Part shown: positions 44,836 to 56,156 of the stretch, piece after piece
Position numbering within the stretch: position 1 is the first letter of the stretch
Layout of the letters: each line of letters opens with the position of its first letter
Assembly (NCBI RefSeq): GCF_000526315.1
Contig: NZ_JAFV01000001.1
Span: 1,736,001-1,800,000 of the forward strand
Direction of reading: 5' to 3'
Length of the DNA: 64,000 bases
From: Methylopila sp. 73B
Lineage (GTDB): Bacteria > Pseudomonadota > Alphaproteobacteria > Rhizobiales > Methylopilaceae
Position numbers and translations under genes: made by a program
The notes under the pieces: generated by a model
The model's database searches: none
Told to the model about the DNA's origin: nothing
Seen by the model: only the letters and a program-made list of their open reading frames with translations

Positions 44836-45171
44836 TCAGTGGCTAATCATCCAGGGCCGCGCGTTCGGGAAGCTTTTGGCGGCGGGCGGCTGGGCGGCGG
44901 CGCTCGCCGGCGTCTTCAGGCCGCGGCCGGAGCAGCAGCCGCAACCGGGCGCGTGGCTTTTCGAGCTCTTCGGCGCATGCGACGAGCGTTCGTTGGTGGC
45001 CATGGCGATGCGGCGGGAAGGGTCCATGCCGGCGAGCGCCGGCGCGGTCAGCATGACCCGCGGGGCCTCGTCGCCGCAGAGCGGGCAGGCGTGCGGGTCC
45101 TGGAACGCCGCCATCGGGCGCAGCGCCGTGAAAGGTCCGCAGTCGTCGCAGGCGTATTCGTAGACGGGCAT
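44836..45171 (-). CDS. fmdB: FmdB family zinc-ribbon protein
   Basis: 111 residues. The FmdB zinc ribbon is at the N terminus: C8, C11 and C29, C32 (CDDC and CPLC). A second Cys cluster, CGCCSGRG, lies near residues 77-84. FmdB was proposed as a regulator of formamidase in Methylophilus methylotrophus, but its biochemical role is unknown. It lies after fmdA on the same strand, separated by a 160-nt gap with a palindromic repeat. Confidence 0.88.
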   Translation of the reverse strand: MPVYEYACDDCGPFTALRPMAAFQDPHACPLCGDEAPRVMLTAPALAGMDPSRRIAMATNERSSHAPKSSKSHAPGCGCCSGRGLKTPASAAAQPPAAKSFPNARPWMISH

Positions 45172-45331: not shown

Positions 45332-46561
45332 TCAGAGATCCGGCGCGATCGGCATCTGGATCGAGCCGTCGATGAACTTCACCGGGCCGGCCGCGGTCGG
45401 GTTGATGTCGAACTCGAAGATCTTCGTCGGCAGCCACAGCGTGGCGCAGGCGTTCGGGATGTCGACGACGCCCGAGATATGGCCCTGCACCGGGGCGGTG
45501 CCGAGGATCGAGTAGGCCTGGGCGCCGGAGTAGCCGAACTTCTTCAGGTACTCGATGGCGTTGAGGCAGGCCTGCCGGTAGGCGACGCCGACGTCGAGGT
45601 AGTGCTGCTCGCCGTACTCGTCGACCGAGATGCCCTCGAAGATCAGGTAGTCGTCGTACTTCGGGGTGATCACCGACGGCTTGAAGATCGGGTTCTTGAT
45701 CCCGTACTTCGACATGCCGTCCTTGATGACGTCGACCTTGAGATGCAGCCAGCCGGCCATCTCGATCGCGCCGCAGAAGGTGATCTCGCCGTCGCCCTGG
45801 CTGAAGTGCAGGTCGCCCATCGAGAGGCCGCCGCCCGGCACGTAGACGGGGAAGTAGATCTTGGAGCCGCGCGACAGATCCTTGATGTCGCAGTTGCCGC
45901 CGTGCTCGCGCGGCGGAACGGTGCGCACGGCTTCGGCCGCGGCTGCGGCCTTCGCGTCGCCGGTCAGCCGTCCCATGTGCGCGGTCGGGGCGAACGGCAC
46001 GGTTCCGACGGCCGGCACGCGGTCCTTGTGCTTCTCGACGAACGGGATCTCGCGGTCGTTCCAGGTCTTGAGCAGCTTCGGGTCCGGCAGGCAGCCGATC
46101 AGGCCGGGATGGATCAGTCCGGGGAAGCGCACGCCGGGGATGTGGCGCGACTTGGTGAACATGCCCTCGAAGTCCCAGATCGACTTCTGCGCCGAGGGGT
46201 AGTGGTCGGTCAGGAAGCCGCCGCCGTTGTTCTTCGAGAAGAAGCCGTTGAAGCCCCACTGGCTCTCGGCCTTGGCGCCGATGTCGAGCAGGTCGACCAC
46301 CAGCAGGTCGCCCGGCTCCGCGCCCTCGACGCCGATCGGGCCCGACAGGAAGTGGACGATCGAGAGGTCGATGTCGCGGACGTCCGAGGCGTCGTCGTTG
46401 TTTTTGACGAAGCCGCCGGTCCAGTCGTAGGTCTCGATGATGAAGTCGTCGCCGGGCTTCACCCAGGCTACGATCGGGATGTCCGGGTGCCAGCGGTTGT
46501 GCACCATGTCGTTGTCGTAGGCCGACTGGGTCAGGTCGACCTTGATCAGCGTTTCGGTCAT
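45332..46561 (-). CDS. fmdA: Formamidase
   Basis: Hydrolyses formamide (and more slowly acetamide) to ammonia and the carboxylate in the cytoplasm. 409 residues, close to the 407 of the Methylophilus enzyme, of the FmdA/AmdA acetamidase/formamidase family. Typical parts are HNRWHPDIPIVAWVKPGDDF, IETYDWTGGF, FPGLIHPGLIGCLPD and GGNCDIKDLSRGSKIYFPVY. GGGGAGC precedes the start. It follows urtE by 59 nt, so importer and amidase are probably one transcript. Confidence 0.95.
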   Translation of the reverse strand: MTETLIKVDLTQSAYDNDMVHNRWHPDIPIVAWVKPGDDFIIETYDWTGGFVKNNDDASDVRDIDLSIVHFLSGPIGVEGAEPGDLLVVDLLDIGAKAESQWGFNGFFSKNNGGGFLTDHYPSAQKSIWDFEGMFTKSRHIPGVRFPGLIHPGLIGCLPDPKLLKTWNDREIPFVEKHKDRVPAVGTVPFAPTAHMGRLTGDAKAAAAAEAVRTVPPREHGGNCDIKDLSRGSKIYFPVYVPGGGLSMGDLHFSQGDGEITFCGAIEMAGWLHLKVDVIKDGMSKYGIKNPIFKPSVITPKYDDYLIFEGISVDEYGEQHYLDVGVAYRQACLNAIEYLKKFGYSGAQAYSILGTAPVQGHISGVVDIPNACATLWLPTKIFEFDINPTAAGPVKFIDGSIQMPIAPDL

Positions 46562-46620: not shown

Positions 46621-47310
46621 TTACACCGACAGGTATTTGGACACCTGAGCCTCATCGACGTCGGCGCGCTGGGCGTCGTGGACGATCTCGCCGTTCTCGA
46701 CGACCAGCACCCGATCGGCGACGTCGAGGGCGAAGCTCAGCACCTGCTCGGAGACCACGATCGACAGGCCGCGGTCGTCGCGGATGCGGCGGAGCGTGCG
46801 GGCCATCTCGCGGATAATCGACGGCTGGATGCCCTCGGTCGGCTCGTCCAGCAGCAGCACCTTCGGCTTGGTGGCGAGCGCGCGGGCGATGGCGAGCTGC
46901 TGCTGCTGGCCGCCGGAGAGGTTGCCGGCGCGGCGCCCCTTCATCTCCAGCAGCACGGGGAACAGCTCGTAGATGTCGTCGGGCACCTTGCGGTCGCCGG
47001 AGGCCACCAGCCCGGTCTCGATGTTCTCCTTCACCGTCATGGTGGAGAACACCATGCGGCCCTGCGGCACGTAGGCGACGCCCTTCTTCACCCGCTGGTG
47101 GCTCTTGAGGCCGTTGATGTCCTCGCCGCCGAGCCTGATCGAGCCCGCCGTGGTCGGCAGGATCCCCATCATGGCCTTCATCAGCGTGGTCTTGCCCATG
47201 CCGTTGCGGCCCATGATCGCGACGATCTCGTTCGGCGCGACGGAGAAGTTCATGCCATGCAGCACTTCGCTCTGGCCGTAGGCGACGCGCAGGGAATCGA
47301 CGTCCAGCAT
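46621..47310 (-). CDS. urtE: Urea/amide ABC transporter ATP-binding protein UrtE
   Basis: 229 residues from MLDVDSLRVAYGQSEVLHGM; upstream open sequence overlaps urtD and is a shadow. Walker A GRNGMGKTT, signature LSGGQQQQLAIARAL, Walker B LLLDEPTEG. The phrase MMGILPTTAGSIRLGGEDIN and the EPTEGIQPSIIREMARTLRR segment are characteristic of UrtE rather than LivF. It starts 11 nt after urtD. Confidence 0.93.
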   Translation of the reverse strand: MLDVDSLRVAYGQSEVLHGMNFSVAPNEIVAIMGRNGMGKTTLMKAMMGILPTTAGSIRLGGEDINGLKSHQRVKKGVAYVPQGRMVFSTMTVKENIETGLVASGDRKVPDDIYELFPVLLEMKGRRAGNLSGGQQQQLAIARALATKPKVLLLDEPTEGIQPSIIREMARTLRRIRDDRGLSIVVSEQVLSFALDVADRVLVVENGEIVHDAQRADVDEAQVSKYLSV

Positions 47311-47321
47311 CGCTTCGCTCC

Positions 47322-48080
47322 TCAATGGCCGAGATAGACTTCGACGACCTTCGGGTCGGTCTTCACCTTCTGCATGGACCCTTCCGAGAGGATCTTGCCC
47401 TGGTGGAGCACCGTCACCTTGTGCGCGATGTCTTCGACGAACTTCATGTCGTGCTCGATGACGAGCACCGAGCGGTTCTTGATGATGGTGTTGAGCAGCT
47501 CGGCGGTCTTGATGCGCTCGCTCACGCTCATGCCCGCGACCGGCTCGTCCAGCATCAGCAGCTCCGGGTCCTGGATCAGCAGCATGCCGATCTCGAGCCA
47601 CTGCTTCTGGCCGTGGCTCAGGAACGCGGCGCGCTCGTGCAGCTTGTCCTTGAGGAAGATGATCTCGGAGACCTCCTCCACCCGGTCCTTCACCGCCTGG
47701 TCGCGCTTGAAGGTCAGCGCCCCCCAGACTGACCGGCCCTTCGGGTAGGAGATCTCGAGATTCTCAAAGATCGTCAGGTCGTCGTAGATCGACGGCGTCT
47801 GGAACTTCCGGCCGACGCCCGAGAGCACGATCTGGCTCTCGCTCATCTTGGTGAGCTCCGCCCCGCGGAAGCGGATGGAGCCGGTGGTGGCCTTGGTCTT
47901 CCCGCAGATGAGGTCGAGCACTGTGGTCTTGCCGGCCCCGTTCGGGCCGATGATCACGCGGATCTCGTTCTCGTCGACGTAGAACGACAGGTCGTTCACC
48001 GCCTTGAAGCCGTCGAAGGAGACGGTGAGAGCCTCGACCGCAAGCAGGTAGTCCTTGGCGGGGGTTCCGATGGTGGTCAC
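47322..48080 (-). CDS. urtD: Urea/amide ABC transporter ATP-binding protein UrtD
   Basis: 252 residues. Walker A GPNGAGKTT; the altered signature LSHGQKQWLEIGMLL, a marker of UrtD, replaces LSGGQ; Walker B LLMLDEPVAGM. It pairs with UrtE to energise import. It lies 10 nt after urtC. Confidence 0.94.
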   Translation of the reverse strand: MTTIGTPAKDYLLAVEALTVSFDGFKAVNDLSFYVDENEIRVIIGPNGAGKTTVLDLICGKTKATTGSIRFRGAELTKMSESQIVLSGVGRKFQTPSIYDDLTIFENLEISYPKGRSVWGALTFKRDQAVKDRVEEVSEIIFLKDKLHERAAFLSHGQKQWLEIGMLLIQDPELLMLDEPVAGMSVSERIKTAELLNTIIKNRSVLVIEHDMKFVEDIAHKVTVLHQGKILSEGSMQKVKTDPKVVEVYLGH

Positions 48081-48090
48081 GGGGCCATCC

Positions 48091-49236
48091 TCACTCGGCG
48101 GGGGCGGTGGAGGCCGCCTGCTTGGCGACGTCGTCGCCCGGGCGCCTGGGGCGAAGCTTAAGCGCGCGGTCGACGTGGGGCTGGACGTAGTCGTTCCAGA
48201 TGCCGGCGAGGCCGTTCGGGAAGGCGAGCACCACCGCGATGAACAGGCCGCCGAGGCCGAGCAGCCAGAGCTCCGGGAAGCTCTCGGACAGGCTGGTCTT
48301 GGCGAAGTTGACCGCGAGGGTCCCGTAGATCGCCCCGAACAGCGACATCCGCCCGCCGACGGCGGTGAAGATCACCATCTCGATCGAGGGCACGATGCCG
48401 ACCAGCGAGGGCGACATGAACCCGACCTGCAGGGTGAACATCGCGCCGCCGAGCGCCGCGAACACGCCGGCGAGGCAGAACACGAAGATCTGGAAGTTCG
48501 CGACCGAGTAGCCGGAGAACCGCACGCGGTCCTCCTTCTCGCGCATCGCCACCAGGATGCGGCCGAGCTTCGAGGCGCGGACGAACAGGGCGAGGCCGAC
48601 CACGCTCAGCAGCAAAGCGACGTTCACGAAGTAGAGAATGAACTTCGCGCTGTCGGTGCGGATGTCCCACCCGTGCAGCGTGCGCAGGTCGGTGATGCCG
48701 TTGACGCCGCCGGTGTAGCCCTGCTGGCCGATGATGAGGATGGTCGCGATCGCCGCAATCGCCTGGGTGATGATCGCGAAGTACACGCCCGACACGCGAC
48801 GCTTGAACATCGCCGAGCCGATCACGAAGGCGAAGAACGCCGGCGCCAGGATGATCAGCAGGATCGTCAGCGGCAGCGAGTGGAACGGCTGCCAGAAGTA
48901 CGGAAGCTCGGTGAGCTGGTTCCAATCCATGAAGTCCGGGATGCCGGGCGTGGACTGGATCTTGGTGTTCTCGACCGACGAGGCCTCGAGCTTGAGGTAC
49001 ATCGCCATGCCGTAGCCGCCGAGCGCGAAGAACACGCCCTGGCCGAGCGACAGGATGCCGCCGTAGCCCCAGCACAGCACCAGGCCGACCGCCACGAAGG
49101 CGTAGGTGAGGTACTTGCCGACGAGGTTCAGCCGGAACCCGTCGAGCAGGACGGGGAACACGATGAGCAGGAGGGCTGCGACGACCGCCAGGGCGAGCAT
49201 GTCCCGGCGGTTGAGGAAGGAGGGCGCGGTCTTCAT
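48091..49236 (-). CDS. urtC: Urea/amide ABC transporter permease UrtC
   Basis: 381 residues from MKTAPSFLNRRDMLALAVVA, about ten membrane helices. Of the LivM-like permease family; the segments LCWGYGGILSLGQGVFFALG and QGYTGGVNGITDLRTLHGWD fit UrtC. The C-terminal tail (RPRRPGDDVAKQAASTAPAE) is polar. It starts 14 nt after urtB. Confidence 0.93.
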   Translation of the reverse strand: MKTAPSFLNRRDMLALAVVAALLLIVFPVLLDGFRLNLVGKYLTYAFVAVGLVLCWGYGGILSLGQGVFFALGGYGMAMYLKLEASSVENTKIQSTPGIPDFMDWNQLTELPYFWQPFHSLPLTILLIILAPAFFAFVIGSAMFKRRVSGVYFAIITQAIAAIATILIIGQQGYTGGVNGITDLRTLHGWDIRTDSAKFILYFVNVALLLSVVGLALFVRASKLGRILVAMREKEDRVRFSGYSVANFQIFVFCLAGVFAALGGAMFTLQVGFMSPSLVGIVPSIEMVIFTAVGGRMSLFGAIYGTLAVNFAKTSLSESFPELWLLGLGGLFIAVVLAFPNGLAGIWNDYVQPHVDRALKLRPRRPGDDVAKQAASTAPAE

Positions 49237-49250
49237 CTGGGTGTCGCTCC

Positions 49251-50177
49251 TCAGCGCCGAACTTTGAGGGTGAAGAGGCCCTGCGGCCGCAGCATCAGGA
49301 TGGCGACGACGGTCAGCAGCGTGATGACCTTGGCCATCGAGCCGGACAGGAAGAATTCGAGCGTCGACTGCGTCTGCGAGATCGAGAAGGCCGAGGCGAT
49401 GGTGCCGAGCAGGCTGGTCGCGCCGCCGAAGACCACGATCAGGAAGGTGTCGACGATGTAGAGCTGGCCGGAGGTCGGGCCGGTCGAGCCGATCATCGTG
49501 AAGGCGGAGCCGGCGACGCCCGCGATGCCGCAGCCGAGCCCGAAGGTCAGGCGGTCGACCTTCTCGGTGTCGATGCCGACGGCGCCGGCCATAACCCGGT
49601 TCTGCACCACGGCGCGGACCTGCTGGCCCCAGCGCGACTTGTACATGAGCAGCGCGACCGTGACGGTGATCAGCGTCGTCAGGCACATGACGAAGACGCC
49701 GTTGATCGGCACTTCGATGGTGTCGGTGAGCGGCAGCGAGCCCAGCAGCCAGTCCGGCAGCACCACGCCGACCTCGCGCGGGCCGAACACGGAACGGTAG
49801 GTCTGCTGAAGAATAAGGCTGAGGCCCCACGTCGCCAGCAGCGTGTCGAGCGGCCGCTTGTAGAGCCGCTTGATCAGGGTCCACTCCACCAGCATCCCGA
49901 GCGACCCGGACGCGACGAAGGCGAGCGCCATGGCGACAAAGAAGTAGGCGGGGAACAGCGAGGGCAGCTGAGCCTGGAAGAATTCCGAGCAGAAGTAGGT
50001 GACGTAGGCCCCGAGGATCATGAACTCGCCGTGAGCCATGTTGATCACGCCCATCTGCCCGAAGATGATCGCGAGACCCAGCGCCATCAGGACGTAGACG
50101 GAGAACAGGATCAGGCCGGCGAAGCCCTGCATCGCGAAGATCGAGCCGAGATCGCCAAGAGAGTAGTCGCCGAACAT
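49251..50177 (-). CDS. urtB: Urea/amide ABC transporter permease UrtB
   Basis: 308 residues from MFGDYSLGDLGSIFAMQGFA, behind GGAG; a start 29 codons upstream lies in the palindromic repeat and is rejected. LivH-like permease with IIFGQMGVINMAHGEFMILG, WGLSLILQQTYRSVFGPREV and VVFGGATSLLGTIASAFSIS. About eight helices. E. coli-type UrtB is longer (about 500 residues) because of an N-terminal periplasmic part; the short form is seen in formamide/urea clusters such as this. Confidence 0.92.
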   Translation of the reverse strand: MFGDYSLGDLGSIFAMQGFAGLILFSVYVLMALGLAIIFGQMGVINMAHGEFMILGAYVTYFCSEFFQAQLPSLFPAYFFVAMALAFVASGSLGMLVEWTLIKRLYKRPLDTLLATWGLSLILQQTYRSVFGPREVGVVLPDWLLGSLPLTDTIEVPINGVFVMCLTTLITVTVALLMYKSRWGQQVRAVVQNRVMAGAVGIDTEKVDRLTFGLGCGIAGVAGSAFTMIGSTGPTSGQLYIVDTFLIVVFGGATSLLGTIASAFSISQTQSTLEFFLSGSMAKVITLLTVVAILMLRPQGLFTLKVRR

Positions 50178-50209
50178 GCCATGGTCTCCAGTCCCGATGG
50201 GAAGAAAGG

Positions 50210-50325
50210 CGTCATCCCGGACGGCCGAGGCCGAGCCGGGATCGTCGTCCGGAAAGCCCTTCATCGAAGGGCGCCATGTTCGGAGAACGATCCCGGCTCT
50301 GCGCTGCGCTTCGGCCGGGATGACG
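50210..50325. repeat. Palindromic intergenic repeat, family 1 (copy 3)
   Basis: Starts CGTCATCCCGGACGGCCGAG, contains GAGCCGGGATCG and CGATCCCGGCTC in inverted order, and ends GGCCGGGATGACG. Lies between urtA and urtB inside the transporter operon. Confidence 0.75.
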
Positions 50326-50350: not shown

Positions 50351-51613
50351 TCACTGGTAGCCCTTCGGGAAGGGGTTCGGCTCGATGAGCTCGGGGCTCT
50401 CGTAGACCACCTTGAACTGGCCATCCTTCTGGGCGAGGCCGACGCGGGTCTTGGACCAGAGGTGGTGGTTCGCGTGGACCTTGACGTAGCCTTCCGGCGC
50501 CTTGGTGAACTCGATGCCCTCCGAGGCCACGGCGATCTTGTCGACGTCGAAGGAGCCCGCCTTCTCGACGGTCATCTTCCAGATCCACGGGCCGAGATAG
50601 GCGGCCTGCGTCACGTCGCCGATGACGGTCTTCTCGCCCCACATCTTCTTGAACGCCGCGACGAACTCCTTGTTGTTCGGGTTGTCGAGCGACTGGAAGT
50701 ACTTCATGCAGGAGTAGGCGCCGGCGATGTTGTCGCCGCCGATGCCGTCGATCTCGTCCTCGGTGACCGAGATCGTGATCAGGGTCTGCTTCTCGAGGTT
50801 GATGCCGGCGGCCTTCAGCTGCTTGTAGAACGCCACGTTCGACCCGCCGACCACGTCGGTGAAGATCACGTCCGGCTTGGTCAGCTTCAGCTTGTTGATG
50901 ACGGAGTTGAACTGGGTGTGGCCGAGCGGGAAGTACTCTTCGCCGACGACCTTGGTGCCCTTCAGGAAGTTTTCGATGTGCTTGCGCGCGATCTTGTTCG
51001 ACGTGCGCGGCCAGATGTAGTCCGAGCCGATGAAGTAGAAGGTCTTGGCGCCCTTCTCCTTGACGACCCAGTTCAGCGACTCGAGGATCTGCTGGGTGGC
51101 TTCCTGGCCGGTGTAGATGACGTTCTTCGACTGCTCGAGGCCCTCGTAGAAGGTCGGATAGTACAGCATGCCGTTGTACTGCTCGATCACCGGCAGCACG
51201 GCCTTGCGCGAGGCCGAGGTCCAGCAGCCCATGATGGCCGCGACCTTGTCCTGCACGAGCAGCTTCTTGGCCTTCTCGGCGAAGGTCGGCCAGTCGGACG
51301 CGCCGTCTTCCTGGATGAACTTGATCTTGCGGCCGAGCACGCCGCCCATCTCGTTGATCTGCGCGATCGCGAGCTTCTCAGCCTGGATCGAGCCGGTCTC
51401 CGAGATCGCCATCGTGCCGGTGGCGGAATGCAGGATGCCGACCGTCACCTCGGTGTCCGTCACCGCGAGGCCGGTGGTGTTGACCGCCGCCGTCGCCGGC
51501 GTCTGCGCGAACGCCGTCTTCGGCATCATCCCGGCGAAAGGCGCCGCCGCCATGCCCATCAAGAGCTTGCGGCGGAGCGGCGAATGAAATCCCGTCTTGT
51601 CGTCGCGCGACAT
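50351..51613 (-). CDS. urtA: Urea/amide ABC transporter substrate-binding protein UrtA
   Basis: 420 residues, periplasmic. The N terminus has SPLRRKLLMGMAAAPFAG and a cleavage-type site TAFAQ near residue 36, a twin-arginine-like signal. The mature part has VTVGILHSATGTMAISETG, AIMGCWTSASRKAVLPVIEQ and QFNSVINKLKLTKPDVIFTD, the UrtA/FmdD type. In Methylophilus the orthologous importer takes up short-chain amides and urea. First gene of the operon, divergent from the sensor kinase. Confidence 0.94.
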   Translation of the reverse strand: MSRDDKTGFHSPLRRKLLMGMAAAPFAGMMPKTAFAQTPATAAVNTTGLAVTDTEVTVGILHSATGTMAISETGSIQAEKLAIAQINEMGGVLGRKIKFIQEDGASDWPTFAEKAKKLLVQDKVAAIMGCWTSASRKAVLPVIEQYNGMLYYPTFYEGLEQSKNVIYTGQEATQQILESLNWVVKEKGAKTFYFIGSDYIWPRTSNKIARKHIENFLKGTKVVGEEYFPLGHTQFNSVINKLKLTKPDVIFTDVVGGSNVAFYKQLKAAGINLEKQTLITISVTEDEIDGIGGDNIAGAYSCMKYFQSLDNPNNKEFVAAFKKMWGEKTVIGDVTQAAYLGPWIWKMTVEKAGSFDVDKIAVASEGIEFTKAPEGYVKVHANHHLWSKTRVGLAQKDGQFKVVYESPELIEPNPFPKGYQ

Positions 51614-51693: not shown

Positions 51694-51711
51694 ATACGTC
51701 GGTTGACGTAT
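51694..51711. promoter_or_regulatory. Perfect 7+7 inverted repeat in the urtA/kinase divergent region
   Basis: ATACGTC, spacer GGTT, GACGTAT: a perfect dyad, 83 nt before the urtA start and 170 nt before the kinase start. It is the most symmetric and AT-containing element of the gap, and overlaps a TATATG sequence on the urtA strand. A likely operator, possibly for the LuxR-type regulator encoded nearby (inference). Confidence 0.5.
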
Positions 51712-51880: not shown

Positions 51881-54800
51881 ATGACCGGGCGGCAGCGCAT
51901 CGTGCCTGCGCGGCGCCAATACAACCAGTGGGTCGCCGACGAGACGCTCGAGGATTACGCGCTCCGCTTCACCGCGAAGAGCGCGCGCCGTTGGTCCGCC
52001 GTTCGCGTCGGCAACACCGCGCTCGGCGCCGTGTCGTTCCTCGCGCTCGAGGCGATCGGCGGCGCCATCACGCTAAGCTACGGCTTCGACAACGCGGTCG
52101 TCGCGACGCTGGTCGTCAGCGCGCTGCTGCTGCTGACCGGCCTTCCCATCGCCTATTACGCCGCCCGCGACGGAGTCGACATCGACCTGCTCACCCGCGG
52201 CGCCGGCTTCGGCTACGTCGGCTCGACCGTGACGTCGCTGATCTACGCCTCCTTCACCTTCCTGCTGTTCGCGATCGAAGCCGTGATCATGGCTCTCGCG
52301 CTCGAGCTCTGCCTCGGGGTGCCGCTCGCGCTGGGCTACGTCATCAGCGCCCTCGTGGTGCTGCCGATCGTCACGCACGGCATCAACTGGATCAGCCGCT
52401 TCCAGCTCTGGACCCAGCCGATCTGGCTCGTGCTGCACCTGACGCCGATCGTGTTCATCGCCTTTCAGGACACCTCGGCCTTCGCCGACTGGACCGCGTT
52501 CCAGGGGACAAGCCCGAACGGCGGGACGCTGAACCTCATCGCCTTCGGCGCGGCGAGCTCCGTGGTGTTCGCGCTAATCGCGCAGATCGGCGAGCAGGTC
52601 GACATCCTGCGGTTCATGCCTGCGAAGACGCGCGAGAACCGGCTGGCGTGGTGGTCGTCCCTGCTCGCCTCCGGCGCCGGCTGGATCGTGCCCGGCGCGC
52701 TCAAGCTGCTGCTGGGCTCGTTCCTCGCCGTGCTCGCGCTCAACCACGGCGTGCCGGCCGAGCGCGCGAGCGAACCGACGCAGATGTACGACGTCGCCTT
52801 CGGCTACGTGACCTCGTCGCCGCAATTCGCGCTGGCGCTCACCGGCGTCTTCGTCGTGCTGTCTCAGCTCAAGATCAACGTGACCAACGCCTACGCCGGC
52901 TCGATCGCCTGGTCGAACTTCTTCTCGCGGCTGACGCACGCCCATCCCGGACGAATCGTCTGGCTGGTGTTCAACGTCGCCATCGCCCTCATCCTGATGG
53001 AGGCGGGCATCTACAAGACGCTCGAGCACACGCTCGGGCTCTACTCGATCGTCGCCGTCGCCTGGGTCGGCGCGCTGGTGGCCGATCTCGCCGTGAACAA
53101 GCCGCTTGGCCTCTCGCCGCCGCGAATCGAGTTCAAGCGCGCGCACCTCTACGACGTCAACCCGGTCGGCGTCGGCGCCATGGCGCTCGCGACCCTCGCC
53201 GCCTTCCTGGCCTATTCCGGCGCCTGCGGTCCTACCGCAAAGGCGCTCGCGCCCTTTGTCGCCCTCGGCGTCGCCTTCGTGACGGCGCCCGCGATCGCGA
53301 TCGCGACCCGCGGCAAGTTCTATCTCGCCCGCAAGCCGCGGGCGCACTGGCGCCTCCAGCCGACGCTGCGCTGCTCGATCTGCGAGCACGGCTTCGAGTC
53401 CGAGGACATGGCGCATTGCCCGGTCTATTCCGGCCCGATCTGCTCGCTTTGCTGCTCGCTGGACGCGCGCTGCCGCGACGGCTGCAAGCCGCACGCCCGC
53501 CTCTCCAGCCAGGTGGTGGGCGCCTTGACCGCGGTGCTCCCCGCCTGGGCGGTCGGGGGCCTGAACTCGCGCGCCGGGCACTACGTCGGCGTGATGACGC
53601 TGCTGGGCGGCGCGCTCACGCTGGTGCTGCTCATCGTCTACGTCCAAGCGGCGGCCGAGGCGCCCGAGCAGACCACCGTGATCGCCGGCGCGCTCTCCGC
53701 CGTCTTCCTGATCCTCATGATGATCGCCGGCATCGCCGCCTGGCTGTTCGTGCTGGCGCATGAAAGCCGGGAGATCGCGCAGGACGAGTCGGGCCGCCAG
53801 ACGGCGCTCCTGATGAAGGAGATCGAGGCCCACAAGCGCACCGACGCCGCGCTCCAGCGGGCGAAGGAGGTGGCGGAGGCCGCAAACGTCGCCAAGAGCC
53901 GCTATGTGGTGGGCATCAGCCACGAACTGCGGACGCCGCTCAACGCCGTCATGGGCTACGCCCAGCTGCTCGACAACGACGAGACGCTGCCCCCCCGCGG
54001 CCAGAAGGGGGTGCGGGTCATCCGGCGCTCAGCCGAGCACCTGTCCGGCCTGATCGACGGCCTGCTTGACATCTCGAAGGTCGAAGCCGGCCGGCTGGAG
54101 CTCGCCCGCAACGAGGTGCGAACCCGCGACTTCCTCGACCAGCTCGCCGACATGTTCCGCCTCCAAGCCAACGCCAAGGGCCTCGAGTTCCGGTTCGACG
54201 GCGCCGAGCGCCTGCCCGCGGTGGTGCGCTGCGACGAGAAGCGCGTCCGGCAGATCCTGATCAACCTGCTGTCGAACGCCGTGAAGTTCACCGACGCGGG
54301 CCATGTGGCGCTGCGCGTCTCCTACCGCAGCCAGATCGCGGAATTCGCCGTCACCGACACGGGCGCAGGCATCCGCGACTCGGATCGCCAGCGGATCTTC
54401 GAGCCGTTCGAGCGGGGCGAGGCGACGCGCGCCAAGCTCCAGCCGGGGATGGGGCTAGGGCTCACGATCACGAAGCTGCTGGTCGAGATCATGGGCGGCG
54501 ACCTCGTGCTGGAAAGCGTCGAGGGCGCGGGCAGCACCTTCCGGGTGAAGCTGATGCTCTCCCAGGTCGCCGCGCCGCGCCCCTCCCCCGCCCCGCAGGC
54601 GCGCGTGGTCGGCTACGAAGGGCCGCGCAAGCTGGTGCTTGTGATCGACGACGACGCCGACCACCGCGAGCTGATGCGCGAGGCCCTGGAGCCGATCGGC
54701 TTCAACGTGATCGCGGCGCCGGACGGCGTGGCCGCCCTGACGTTGGTCGACGAATGCCGGCCGGACCTGTTCCTGCTCGACGTCTCGATGCCCGGCATGT

Positions 54801-55252
54801 CGGGCTGGGACGTCGCCCGCAGGCTGCGGGAAACCGGGCATGCGGCGCCGATCCTCATGATGTCGGCGAACATCGGGGACTTCGCGTCGAAGGCCGTCGA
54901 AACGCCGGACCATGACGGCGCCCTGCCGAAGCCTTGCGACCTCGGCGCCCTGCTTCGCCAGATCGAGACGCTGCTTGGCCTCGTCTTCGTCTACGACGCG
55001 CCGCTTCCGGCCGCGCCCCCGGTCCGGGCGAAGCCCGAGTTGCCCGGCTCCCGGCATGTGGGCGACCTGCGGAGGCTCGGCGAGATGGGCTACGTCCGCG
55101 GGATCGAGGCCAAGCTCACGGAGCTCGAGCAGACCGAACCCGAGGCGGCGCCCTTCGTCGCCGAGGCGCGGGAGCGGCTCCGGGCGTTCGACATGAACGG
55201 CTACATGGCCCTGCTCGGGACCCGCGCGCCGGAGGAGACCGCCGATGGCTGA
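51881..55252 (+). CDS. NCS1-transporter/histidine kinase/receiver fusion protein
   Basis: 1123 residues from MTGRQRIVPARRQYNQWVAD; earlier in-frame starts have poor ribosome sites. Residues about 10-480 form a 12-helix NCS1 (nucleobase/allantoin-type) transporter domain. Residues 498-535 carry eight cysteines in the pattern CxxC-x11-C-x7-CxxCC-x5-C-x3-C. Further helices (about 545-635) lead to a coiled linker, then HisKA with H681 (GISHELRTPLNAVMGYAQLL), the ATPase N-box (N799 in NLLSNAVKF) and glycine boxes, and a receiver domain with D967 (LLDVSMPGMSGWD). The C-terminal ~110 residues are of unknown type. A hybrid sensor whose input is a transporter fold. It overlaps the response regulator gene by 8 nt and is divergent from urtA. 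Confidence 0.9.
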   Translation: MTGRQRIVPARRQYNQWVADETLEDYALRFTAKSARRWSAVRVGNTALGAVSFLALEAIGGAITLSYGFDNAVVATLVVSALLLLTGLPIAYYAARDGVDIDLLTRGAGFGYVGSTVTSLIYASFTFLLFAIEAVIMALALELCLGVPLALGYVISALVVLPIVTHGINWISRFQLWTQPIWLVLHLTPIVFIAFQDTSAFADWTAFQGTSPNGGTLNLIAFGAASSVVFALIAQIGEQVDILRFMPAKTRENRLAWWSSLLASGAGWIVPGALKLLLGSFLAVLALNHGVPAERASEPTQMYDVAFGYVTSSPQFALALTGVFVVLSQLKINVTNAYAGSIAWSNFFSRLTHAHPGRIVWLVFNVAIALILMEAGIYKTLEHTLGLYSIVAVAWVGALVADLAVNKPLGLSPPRIEFKRAHLYDVNPVGVGAMALATLAAFLAYSGACGPTAKALAPFVALGVAFVTAPAIAIATRGKFYLARKPRAHWRLQPTLRCSICEHGFESEDMAHCPVYSGPICSLCCSLDARCRDGCKPHARLSSQVVGALTAVLPAWAVGGLNSRAGHYVGVMTLLGGALTLVLLIVYVQAAAEAPEQTTVIAGALSAVFLILMMIAGIAAWLFVLAHESREIAQDESGRQTALLMKEIEAHKRTDAALQRAKEVAEAANVAKSRYVVGISHELRTPLNAVMGYAQLLDNDETLPPRGQKGVRVIRRSAEHLSGLIDGLLDISKVEAGRLELARNEVRTRDFLDQLADMFRLQANAKGLEFRFDGAERLPAVVRCDEKRVRQILINLLSNAVKFTDAGHVALRVSYRSQIAEFAVTDTGAGIRDSDRQRIFEPFERGEATRAKLQPGMGLGLTITKLLVEIMGGDLVLESVEGAGSTFRVKLMLSQVAAPRPSPAPQARVVGYEGPRKLVLVIDDDADHRELMREALEPIGFNVIAAPDGVAALTLVDECRPDLFLLDVSMPGMSGWDVARRLRETGHAAPILMMSANIGDFASKAVETPDHDGALPKPCDLGALLRQIETLLGLVFVYDAPLPAAPPVRAKPELPGSRHVGDLRRLGEMGYVRGIEAKLTELEQTEPEAAPFVAEARERLRAFDMNGYMALLGTRAPEETADG

Positions 55253-56156
55253 GGGCGCGCCCGTCGTCGTGCTGGTCGTCGACGACAGTCCGGAGACGCT
55301 CGGGATGCTCACCGAGGCGCTCGAGCGCGCCTCGTGGACGGTGCTGGTCGCGCCCGGCGGCGCGGAGGCCCTGCGCGTGGTCGACCGCGTGACCCCCGAC
55401 GTGGTGTTGATGGACGCGGTGATGCCGGAGATGGACGGCTTCGAGGCCTGCCGGCGCCTGAAGCGGCGGCCAGACATGGCGCATGTCCCGGTGATCTTCA
55501 TGACCGGCCTGCGCGAGACCGGCCACATCGTCCAGGGGCTAGAGGCGGGCGGAGTCGACTATGTCGCCAAGCCCGTGGCGCTGGACGAGATGATGGCGCG
55601 CATCCGCGTCCACATCGGCAACGCGCGGCTCTCCAGCAGCGCCCGGGCGGCGCTCGACACTACGGGACGCTATCTGCTGGCGGCAGGGGAAGACGGCCGG
55701 CTGCGCTGGGCTACGCCTCAGGCGGGGCGGCTGCTGGCCCGCGCCTTCTCGGGGTTCGACCAGGATTCGTTCGATCTACCGGAGCCGGTGCGAGCCTGGC
55801 TGGCGGCGCGCGTCACGGGTCGGACAGAGCAGCCCTCGACGCCGCTGTCCGGGGACGGCCCGGCTCAGCTTACGCTCGCTTTCGTTGGGCGCACCGAACG
55901 CGGCGAGACGCTGCTGCGGGTGACCGAGGAGGCGCCGTCGGGGGAGTGGCCGACGCTGCGCGAAAAGCTCGGCCTCACCGCCCGCGAGGCCGAGGTGCTG
56001 CTCTGGATCGCGCGCGGAAAGGCCAACCGCGATATCGCCGAGATTCTCGGCATGAGCCCGCGCACGGTGAACAAGCACCTCGAGCAGATCTACGTGAAGC
56101 TCGGAGTGGAGAACCGCGCCGGCGCCGCTGCGATCGCCGTCCGCACGCTGGGCTGA
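55245..56156 (+). CDS. Response regulator, receiver plus LuxR-type HTH
   Basis: 303 residues. Receiver domain (1-125) with D13, D14, phospho-acceptor D57 (VVLMDAVMPEMDG), T87 and K109. A middle stretch of about 100 residues of unclear fold follows, then a LuxR/FixJ HTH (about 240-300: LTAREAEVLLWIARGKANRD, SPRTVNKHLEQIYVKLGVEN). It overlaps the kinase gene by 8 nt, so the two are a cognate pair in all likelihood. Target unknown; the divergent urt-fmd operon is the natural candidate. Confidence 0.93.
   Translation: MAEGAPVVVLVVDDSPETLGMLTEALERASWTVLVAPGGAEALRVVDRVTPDVVLMDAVMPEMDGFEACRRLKRRPDMAHVPVIFMTGLRETGHIVQGLEAGGVDYVAKPVALDEMMARIRVHIGNARLSSSARAALDTTGRYLLAAGEDGRLRWATPQAGRLLARAFSGFDQDSFDLPEPVRAWLAARVTGRTEQPSTPLSGDGPAQLTLAFVGRTERGETLLRVTEEAPSGEWPTLREKLGLTAREAEVLLWIARGKANRDIAEILGMSPRTVNKHLEQIYVKLGVENRAGAAAIAVRTLG

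Follow-up and report, generated by a model that had tools for sequence, protein, structure and literature searches.

How would a bacterium equipped to import and hydrolyze urea and short amides sense these compounds? The question is raised by a 64,000-nucleotide stretch of Methylopila sp. 73B DNA (the window, G000:C1 1736001 to 1800000, to whose numbering the coordinates below refer), in which a hybrid sensor kinase gene with a permease-like domain lies head to head with a urtABCDE-fmdAB cluster and shares an 8-nt overlap with the gene for a LuxR-type response regulator. We consider it probable that these two proteins form a two-component system for urea or short amides, in which a captured permease would serve as the sensor domain and the regulator would switch the urt-fmd genes through a palindrome. 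The parts of this reading differ in strength. Comparative genomics argues strongly that the palindrome is the regulator's operator, there is good reason to suppose that activation is by urea or a short amide, and our confidence that the permease domain acts as the receptor is moderate. The central elements are as follows.

51881 to 55252, forward strand: hybrid sensor kinase gene (ATG at 51881, stop at 55252; 1123 amino acids)
55245 to 56156, forward strand: LuxR-type response regulator gene (303 amino acids; receiver aspartate D57)
51694 to 51711, no strand assigned: predicted operator ATACGTCGGTTGACGTAT, in the 267 bp that separate the divergent genes, with the start of urtA about 80 bp away

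The kinase frame stays open upstream of 51881, as far as an ATG at 51710, and a start near 51881 is where most kinase homologues begin.

A palindrome shared by kinase and urea/amide genes

The window palindrome reads ATACGTC-GGTT-GACGTAT and conforms to the pattern ATACGY-N6-RCGTAT, which was derived from the window and an initial inspection of other kinase loci. The perfect 18-mer occurs only once in the window genome, in the intergenic region between urt-fmd and the kinase gene, and allowing one mismatch yields four sites versus one in a reversed control. A second 16-mer site in this genome (position 3126189) fails the 18-mer pattern and was set aside. In most of 12 genomes, a one-mismatch scan gives counts similar to those of its own control (for example, 11 versus 18); one-mismatch sites were counted only if located upstream of a urea/amide gene or the kinase.

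Within the 450 bp upstream of the kinase gene, the palindrome is perfect at 43 of 91 loci and present with at most one mismatch at 58 (31 of 55 genera), compared to dinucleotide-shuffle means for the same regions of 0 and 0.2, respectively. The other 450-bp blocks of these loci, 3722 in all, contain 9 perfect sites and 19 with at most one mismatch, many of which precede fmdA, a urtA homologue, or allophanate hydrolase. In annotated loci, the palindrome lies ~75 to 210 bp upstream of the divergent gene. Twelve named loci lie outside the motif definition, and nine of these carry a site with at most one mismatch upstream of the kinase (five perfect), with the reservation that two of the named loci, L256 and L259, share the same site sequence and are not independent. 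A tenth, L253, has a site ~97 bp beyond a urtA match located 8 kb from the kinase, and L258 and L271 have none. In L258, a Thioclava plasmid, the urtABCDE genes are located downstream of the kinase pair in convergent orientation, and the locus contains no site with one mismatch or fewer.

Sites also occur at a distance from the kinase. In three genomes of family f216 whose kinase faces urease (L190, L191, and L192), a site precedes a remote urtA operon, and in genome G566 (L198) a site precedes a remote amiE gene; L193 to L197, read likewise, yielded no such remote target. In L267 and L268, aliphatic amidase genes are likewise preceded by one-mismatch sites. Among UrtA proteins of kinase loci that exceed 60% identity, 47 of 56 genes have a site with at most one mismatch, and a search of 42 kinase-less relatives found no UrtA above this identity.

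Perhaps a different regulator uses the palindrome, and the kinase pair simply lies nearby and controls something else. The 33 of 91 kinases that have no upstream site at up to one mismatch would fit such an arrangement. Against it, none of 28 urtA homologues from 23 kinase-less relatives has a site at two mismatches or fewer (630 bp read; 262 bp in one case), with the reservation that these controls are of the UrtA-prime kind (33 to 45% identity), for which the fair comparison is with kinase-linked UrtA-prime genes, of which 8 of 17 have a site when one mismatch is allowed and 10 of 17 when two are. Genomes with the kinase also carry sites at urtA genes far from it. Given these data, we regard ownership by another regulator as very improbable, the least probable of the alternatives weighed here.

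The gene neighborhoods point to urea and amide use as well. With the window genome counted, a sensor-like match (E below 1e-100) was obtained for 18 of 61 relatives; at class level the figure is 20 of 289 genomes and at phylum level 52 of 398, and these tallies rise to 19, 21, and 58, respectively, if weak or partial matches count. Removal of 8 duplicates left 95 loci, of which 94 have the sensor or part of it and one (L169) has a free permease. Exclusion of L169 and two short contigs (L098 and L165) leaves 92 informative loci, including L092 and L124, whose urt genes were absent from the clustering and were added by tblastn. Flanking genes fall into 199 clusters, and 30 representatives covering ~29 of these were named by Pfam.

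Homologues of the kinase do not lie beside unrelated genes in most genomes. Rather, urea/short-amide genes are found within ~10 kb of the kinase in 86 of the 92 informative loci (52 of 56 genera), where the context is FmdA in 57, urease in 19, urea carboxylase/allophanate hydrolase in 3, a nickel permease only in 1, and urt genes only in 6. These neighbors, and the palindrome shared by this locus and others, lend support to the proposal in the initial annotation that a transporter-derived sensor controls urt-fmd. When 70 permease-domain rows are arranged in a tree, in which 17 of the 67 inner branches are open, the urease and urt/fmd contexts fall in several separate clades, and thus the link to urea/amide use seems to have persisted while partners changed. 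Positions that separate amide from urea contexts are confounded by ancestry and were not used.

The genes divergent from the kinase in the window are listed below. All five Urt proteins and FmdA exceed their NCBIfam cut-offs, and a formamide/urea role for UrtABCDE is possible.

50351 to 51613, reverse strand: urtA, substrate-binding protein (TIGR03407, 537.5 bits versus a cut-off of 492.75)
49251 to 50264, reverse strand: urtB, permease (TIGR03409)
48091 to 49155, reverse strand: urtC, permease (TIGR03408 from open reading frame (ORF) residue 244; upper bound by homology, start not fixed)
47322 to 48080, reverse strand: urtD, ATPase (TIGR03411)
46621 to 47310, reverse strand: urtE, ATPase (TIGR03410 from ORF residue 99)
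45332 to 46561, reverse strand: fmdA, formamidase (NF045496, 744.8 bits, above cut-off; PF03069)
44836 to 45171, reverse strand: fmdB, small zinc-ribbon-type protein of 111 amino acids (read from the frame; conserved beside fmdA)

Some loci depart from this arrangement. L162 and L164 encode shorter kinases (~880 amino acids) together with fmdA, fmdB, and an AmiS/UreI channel gene. No match to the window regulator lies beside these kinases; a separate protein of one cluster is encoded next, which in L164 has a receiver, HisKA, and HATPase in 422 amino acids. The system is widespread not only across genomes of the phylum but also on plasmids, where 520 of 72,556 records match below 1e-60, some of them free permeases. 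Of these 520, 340 are from Klebsiella (some possibly matching via a free permease) and 303 are predicted to be conjugative. In Klebsiella-type plasmids (L256 and L259), urt genes and a formamidase gene accompany the kinase pair, and on Klebsiella and Escherichia coli plasmids the kinase neighbor is annotated amiF or formamidase. The plasmid-borne kinase itself is often annotated as an ATP-binding protein or ArcB. Two records of 329 to 379 kb filed as Acinetobacter phage (CAKLQF020000001.1 and CAKLQH020000001.1) encode a sensor-domain copy with 51% identity under the annotation arcB, and may not be phage.

The sensor domain and its likely ligand

The kinase is composed, in order, of a permease domain, a cysteine module, two helices, and the HisKA, HATPase, and receiver domains.

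51953 to 53335, forward strand: divergent NCS1-type permease domain (residues ~25 to 485; profile-profile comparison, CodB match, and fold search)
53372 to 53485, forward strand: eight-cysteine module with the look of a zinc-ribbon-like tail (residues 498 to 535)
53570 to 53755, forward strand: two further predicted membrane helices between the cysteine module and the kinase (model of moderate confidence)
53894 to 54091, forward strand: HisKA domain (Pfam, residues 672 to 737; H681 codon at 53921 to 53923)
54233 to 54559, forward strand: HATPase_c domain (Pfam, residues 785 to 893)
54635 to 54964, forward strand: receiver (Response_reg) domain (Pfam, residues 919 to 1028; D967 codon at 54779 to 54781)

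With H681 and D967 verified by residue position, the protein has the HisKA histidine, HATPase_c domain, and receiver aspartate of a hybrid histidine kinase. Its partner, with Pfam matches to Response_reg (residues 9 to 121, with the aspartate) and the GerE/LuxR helix-turn-helix (residues 244 to 298), has the parts of a LuxR/NarL-type response regulator. The ~120 regulator residues between these two domains (window positions 55608 to 55973) have no Pfam match and may form a second sensing part. Pfam, residue positions, and profiles thus bear out the initial annotation in placing an NCS1-like domain, a cysteine module, H681, and D967 in one protein, and its account of the overlapping regulator gene and the head-to-head urtABCDE-fmdAB cluster is likewise correct; these features are not products of chance. 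Among the matches listed, the closest named relatives are Methylopila, with 98 to 99% identity in the sensor domain; Methylopila capsulata DSM 6130 (L029) is 99% identical.

The NCS1 label needs qualification. As judged by profiles and a modeled fold, the permease domain is a divergent NCS1 homologue in core and fold and is not a member of PF02133, so the homology claimed earlier stands and the family match does not. Two permeases that align with the sensor domain at 21 to 30% identity do match PF02133, and a 78-row profile comprising these and 76 sensors matches the cytosine permease CodB (7qoa; E 0.0016), the sole chain at E up to 1. A phmmer search of the permease domain against the Protein Data Bank (PDB) found no chain. 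Profile-profile comparison of 34 sensors with four PF02133 proteins gives 96.7% probability and E 3.1e-10 over 374 columns. The AlphaFold model is moderate (pLDDT 65, pTM 0.59), and its best PDB entries in a fold search are CodB (2.5e-5) and Mhp1 (4.9e-5). Next comes NIS, the sodium/iodide symporter, which is an SLC5 protein (1.6e-4); the TM-scores by query length are 0.38 to 0.40. Pfam gives no match to an SLC5 (SSF) domain in the sensor, which does not qualify as SLC5, and none to a STAC domain (the presence of a STAC model in the library being unconfirmed); the cysteine module occupies the STAC position. The window genome has no PF02133 match at all.

Mhp1 positions were transferred to the sensors through L228 and alignments, using the ligand and sodium roles of the Mhp1 residues, including two tryptophans that flank its ligand. 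The position of W117 is F (63 sensors) or L (13) at sensor residue 129, whereas Q121, W220, and N318 correspond to E133, L232, and N336, respectively, in all 76 sensors. S312/T313 correspond to position 330 (mostly L, I, or V) and K331 (76 of 76). Because both tryptophans are replaced, a flat ring ligand would be disfavored, and the lysine at the sodium site suggests that the sensor domain has no sodium coupling.

Free-standing relatives of the domain give a second view of the pocket. Eight were picked, not at random, from the 18 best rows, several others of which are Acinetobacter. These proteins are 41 to 52% identical to the sensor domain over residues 30 to 480, with 67 invariant positions in common, and the predicted pocket residues E133, L232, Q235, E238, Q239, K331, N333, and N336 are the same in all eight and in all 76 sensors. 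Six adjoin urease, fmdA, or amidase genes:

Arthrobacter U41: aliphatic amidase and acetate-CoA ligase next
Tsukamurella: beside fmdA
Acinetobacter johnsonii: beside urease genes
Klebsiella: beside urease genes
Moraxella osloensis: beside fmdA and fmdB
Methylovirgula: amidase, with a hybrid kinase/regulator pair just upstream

Because of these neighbors, the ligand is likely to be urea or a short amide rather than a nucleobase. The free-standing relatives L254, L255, and L262 to L267 are annotated as allantoin permease, cytosine permease, or hypothetical. Such labels, and the NCS1 homology itself, would accommodate a sensor that reads nucleobases, allantoin, or hydantoins, compounds whose breakdown yields urea, as the initial annotation had suggested. 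We consider this highly improbable. Three of the four relatives annotated as allantoin or cytosine permeases adjoin urease or fmdA, the sensors have F/L129 and L232 where Mhp1 has its tryptophan pair, and the 30 Pfam-named neighbor representatives, for ~29 of 199 clusters, include no purine, pyrimidine, or hydantoin gene.

The cysteine module follows the pattern C-x2-C-x11-C-x7-C-x2-CC-x5-C-x3-C and is present in 93 of 95 rows, the misses being a 240-amino-acid fragment and a free permease. The tails of the free-standing relatives hold part of it: most module cysteines are lost in the two Arthrobacter and the Tsukamurella proteins, and all eight are retained in that of Methylovirgula (52% identity). 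Three of the free-standing tails read CxxC...HxH...CxxC, which favors zinc over an iron-sulfur cluster, and we propose with weak to moderate confidence that the tail may bind zinc. A model of the module alone from one sequence is uninformative (pLDDT 50). The linker helices are modeled, with moderate confidence, at residues 564 to 593 and 595 to 639. In the L166, L167, and L168 kinases, the match is broken at query residues ~485 to 497 by extra sequence just before the module.

This module gives some weight to the possibility that the regulon is as described here and the NCS1 domain is a vestigial permease serving as an anchor, with a signal that is cytoplasmic (ammonia status, or metal or redox state at the cysteines) or arrives via another protein. 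All eight cysteines are kept in 76 of 76 aligned sensors, and in 299 genomes all 42 matches to the pattern fall in this kinase, although one free permease (L267) has a full copy. However, a mere anchor should drift, and the permease region is conserved to about the same degree as the kinase, with 101 of 496 columns at 98% or above (the region as cut includes part of the cysteine module), versus 17 of 109 for HATPase and 5 of 66 for HisKA, with mean conservation of 0.71, 0.67, and 0.73, respectively. The unchanged pocket of sensors and free-standing relatives also speaks against a vestigial domain, and we therefore judge the anchor explanation unlikely, while according it more weight than the nucleobase alternative.

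Nine positions are at least 97% fixed in the sensors and different in all eight relatives (31, 53, 57, 98, 120, 134, 171, 339, and 410); the sensors have F53, E57, A134, and A339, compared to Y, F/Q, G, and S in the free permeases. It is an evenly balanced proposition that a subgroup of NCS1-like permeases with a zinc-ribbon-type tail, now annotated as allantoin or cytosine permeases or as hypothetical, represents an unrecognized family of urea/short-amide permeases. One branch would have become fused to a hybrid kinase, with the tail turned into a coupling module, and a small number of substitutions beside the pocket (F53, E57, A134, and A339) would have made a receptor. If true, the Methylovirgula protein, free-standing with all eight cysteines, would be an intermediate between permease and sensor.

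A proposed path from ligand to gene expression

We envision a two-component system that operates in four steps. Urea or a short amide such as formamide would bind the central pocket of the NCS1-type domain, and the resulting change would travel via the membrane-proximal cysteine module and the two extra helices to the kinase. NCS1 proteins have twelve helices and both ends in the cytoplasm; if this holds for the permease core, the cysteine module and kinase would be cytoplasmic. H681, whose motif is present, would then be phosphorylated, and phosphate would pass to the LuxR-type partner, a transfer that D967 or a separate phosphotransfer protein may mediate. Finally, as comparative genomics suggests, the regulator would bind ATACGY-N6-RCGTAT and turn on urtABCDE and fmdAB; the targets in other species would include amiE, allophanate hydrolase/urea carboxylase, or a urt operon linked to urease.

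Several observations weigh against this proposal. The palindrome was first noticed on visual inspection of the window and of the very loci that were later counted, and the named test loci partly share genera with the defining set. Seven of the 17 kinase-linked UrtA-prime genes have no site at two mismatches or fewer. Kinases that face or adjoin a urease cluster (L154, L155, L157, L160, L161, and L166 to L168) have no upstream site, nor does L271, and urease itself may for this reason not be a target. The window genome has three strong urease alpha matches (G000:C1 33562, 1683854, and 4230351), none of them near a perfect palindrome. Six loci in four genera (L032, L034, L108, L109, L111, and L112) have no urea/amide neighbors, although L034 shows one flank only, and the three from one genus (L109, L111, and L112) still carry a perfect palindrome upstream of the kinase. 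The single-sequence permease domain does not reach the PF02133 gathering score, and PF02133 also fails on six further diverse sensors. The free-standing relatives from Streptomyces angustmyceticus and Arthrobacter NicSoilB11 have no urease, fmdA, or amidase neighbors. Lastly, in CbrA, another permease-fused kinase, the kinase activities are reported not to respond to the transported histidine (PMC7096432).

If the proposal is correct, it supplies urea/amide clusters with a candidate sensor, its partner regulator, and a predicted operator of short length. Moreover, free-standing relatives with the same predicted pocket allow a residue-by-residue comparison of transporter and receptor.

Comparison with known systems

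Formamide/urea clusters are known to be substrate inducible. The fmdCABDEF cluster of Methylophilus methylotrophus, which like the window combines genes for formamidase and a short-amide/urea importer, is induced by formamide and urea, and a putative positive regulator is mentioned for it, yet the main text of the review names no kinase and contains neither “histidine kinase” nor “two-component” (PMC10781810). The same two terms do not occur in the main text of the paper on UTS (UrtABC/AmiF) of Klebsiella CG307, which pairs urt genes with a formamidase (PMC13060141). A Klebsiella plasmid urtABCDE-amiF cluster, which we infer to be UTS, includes this kinase pair together with a site that has one mismatch. 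Its AmiF, as seen for the formamidase neighbor in L256, is a CN_hydrolase, unlike and unrelated to FmdA. Among the matches listed, as titles and abstract openings with thin coverage of subscription journals, there was no report of an NCS1-fused kinase or a urea/amide kinase.

The sensor domain resembles the NCS1 permeases Mhp1 and CodB in its homologous core, recognized by profile and fold, and in N336, the equivalent of Mhp1 N318. It differs from them in escaping recognition by PF02133, in its other pocket residues, and in the attached cysteine tail and kinase.

The closest parallels in design are the SLC5/STAC kinases CrbS/CrbR, RpuS/RpuR, and CbrA. These join a LeuT-fold permease to an often hybrid histidine kinase, CrbS/R and RpuS/R have a LuxR-type partner, and CrbR uses an imperfect inverted repeat upstream of nutrient-use genes that is not found where the kinase is absent (PMC5715377, PMC9100948, PMC13022988, PMC7096432). 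The window system shares the fusion of permease and kinase, the LuxR-type partner, and an inverted repeat as its predicted operator. In contrast, its permease is NCS1 type, the cysteine module and two helices replace STAC (and PAS), the operator sequence differs, and the associated genes concern urea and amides rather than acetate, pyruvate, or histidine. Because the parts differ, the window kinase is a variant of the transporter-fused (CbrA/CrbS-like) kinases and not a member of the SLC5/STAC group, and it stands as a second case, assembled separately, of permease-kinase fusion.

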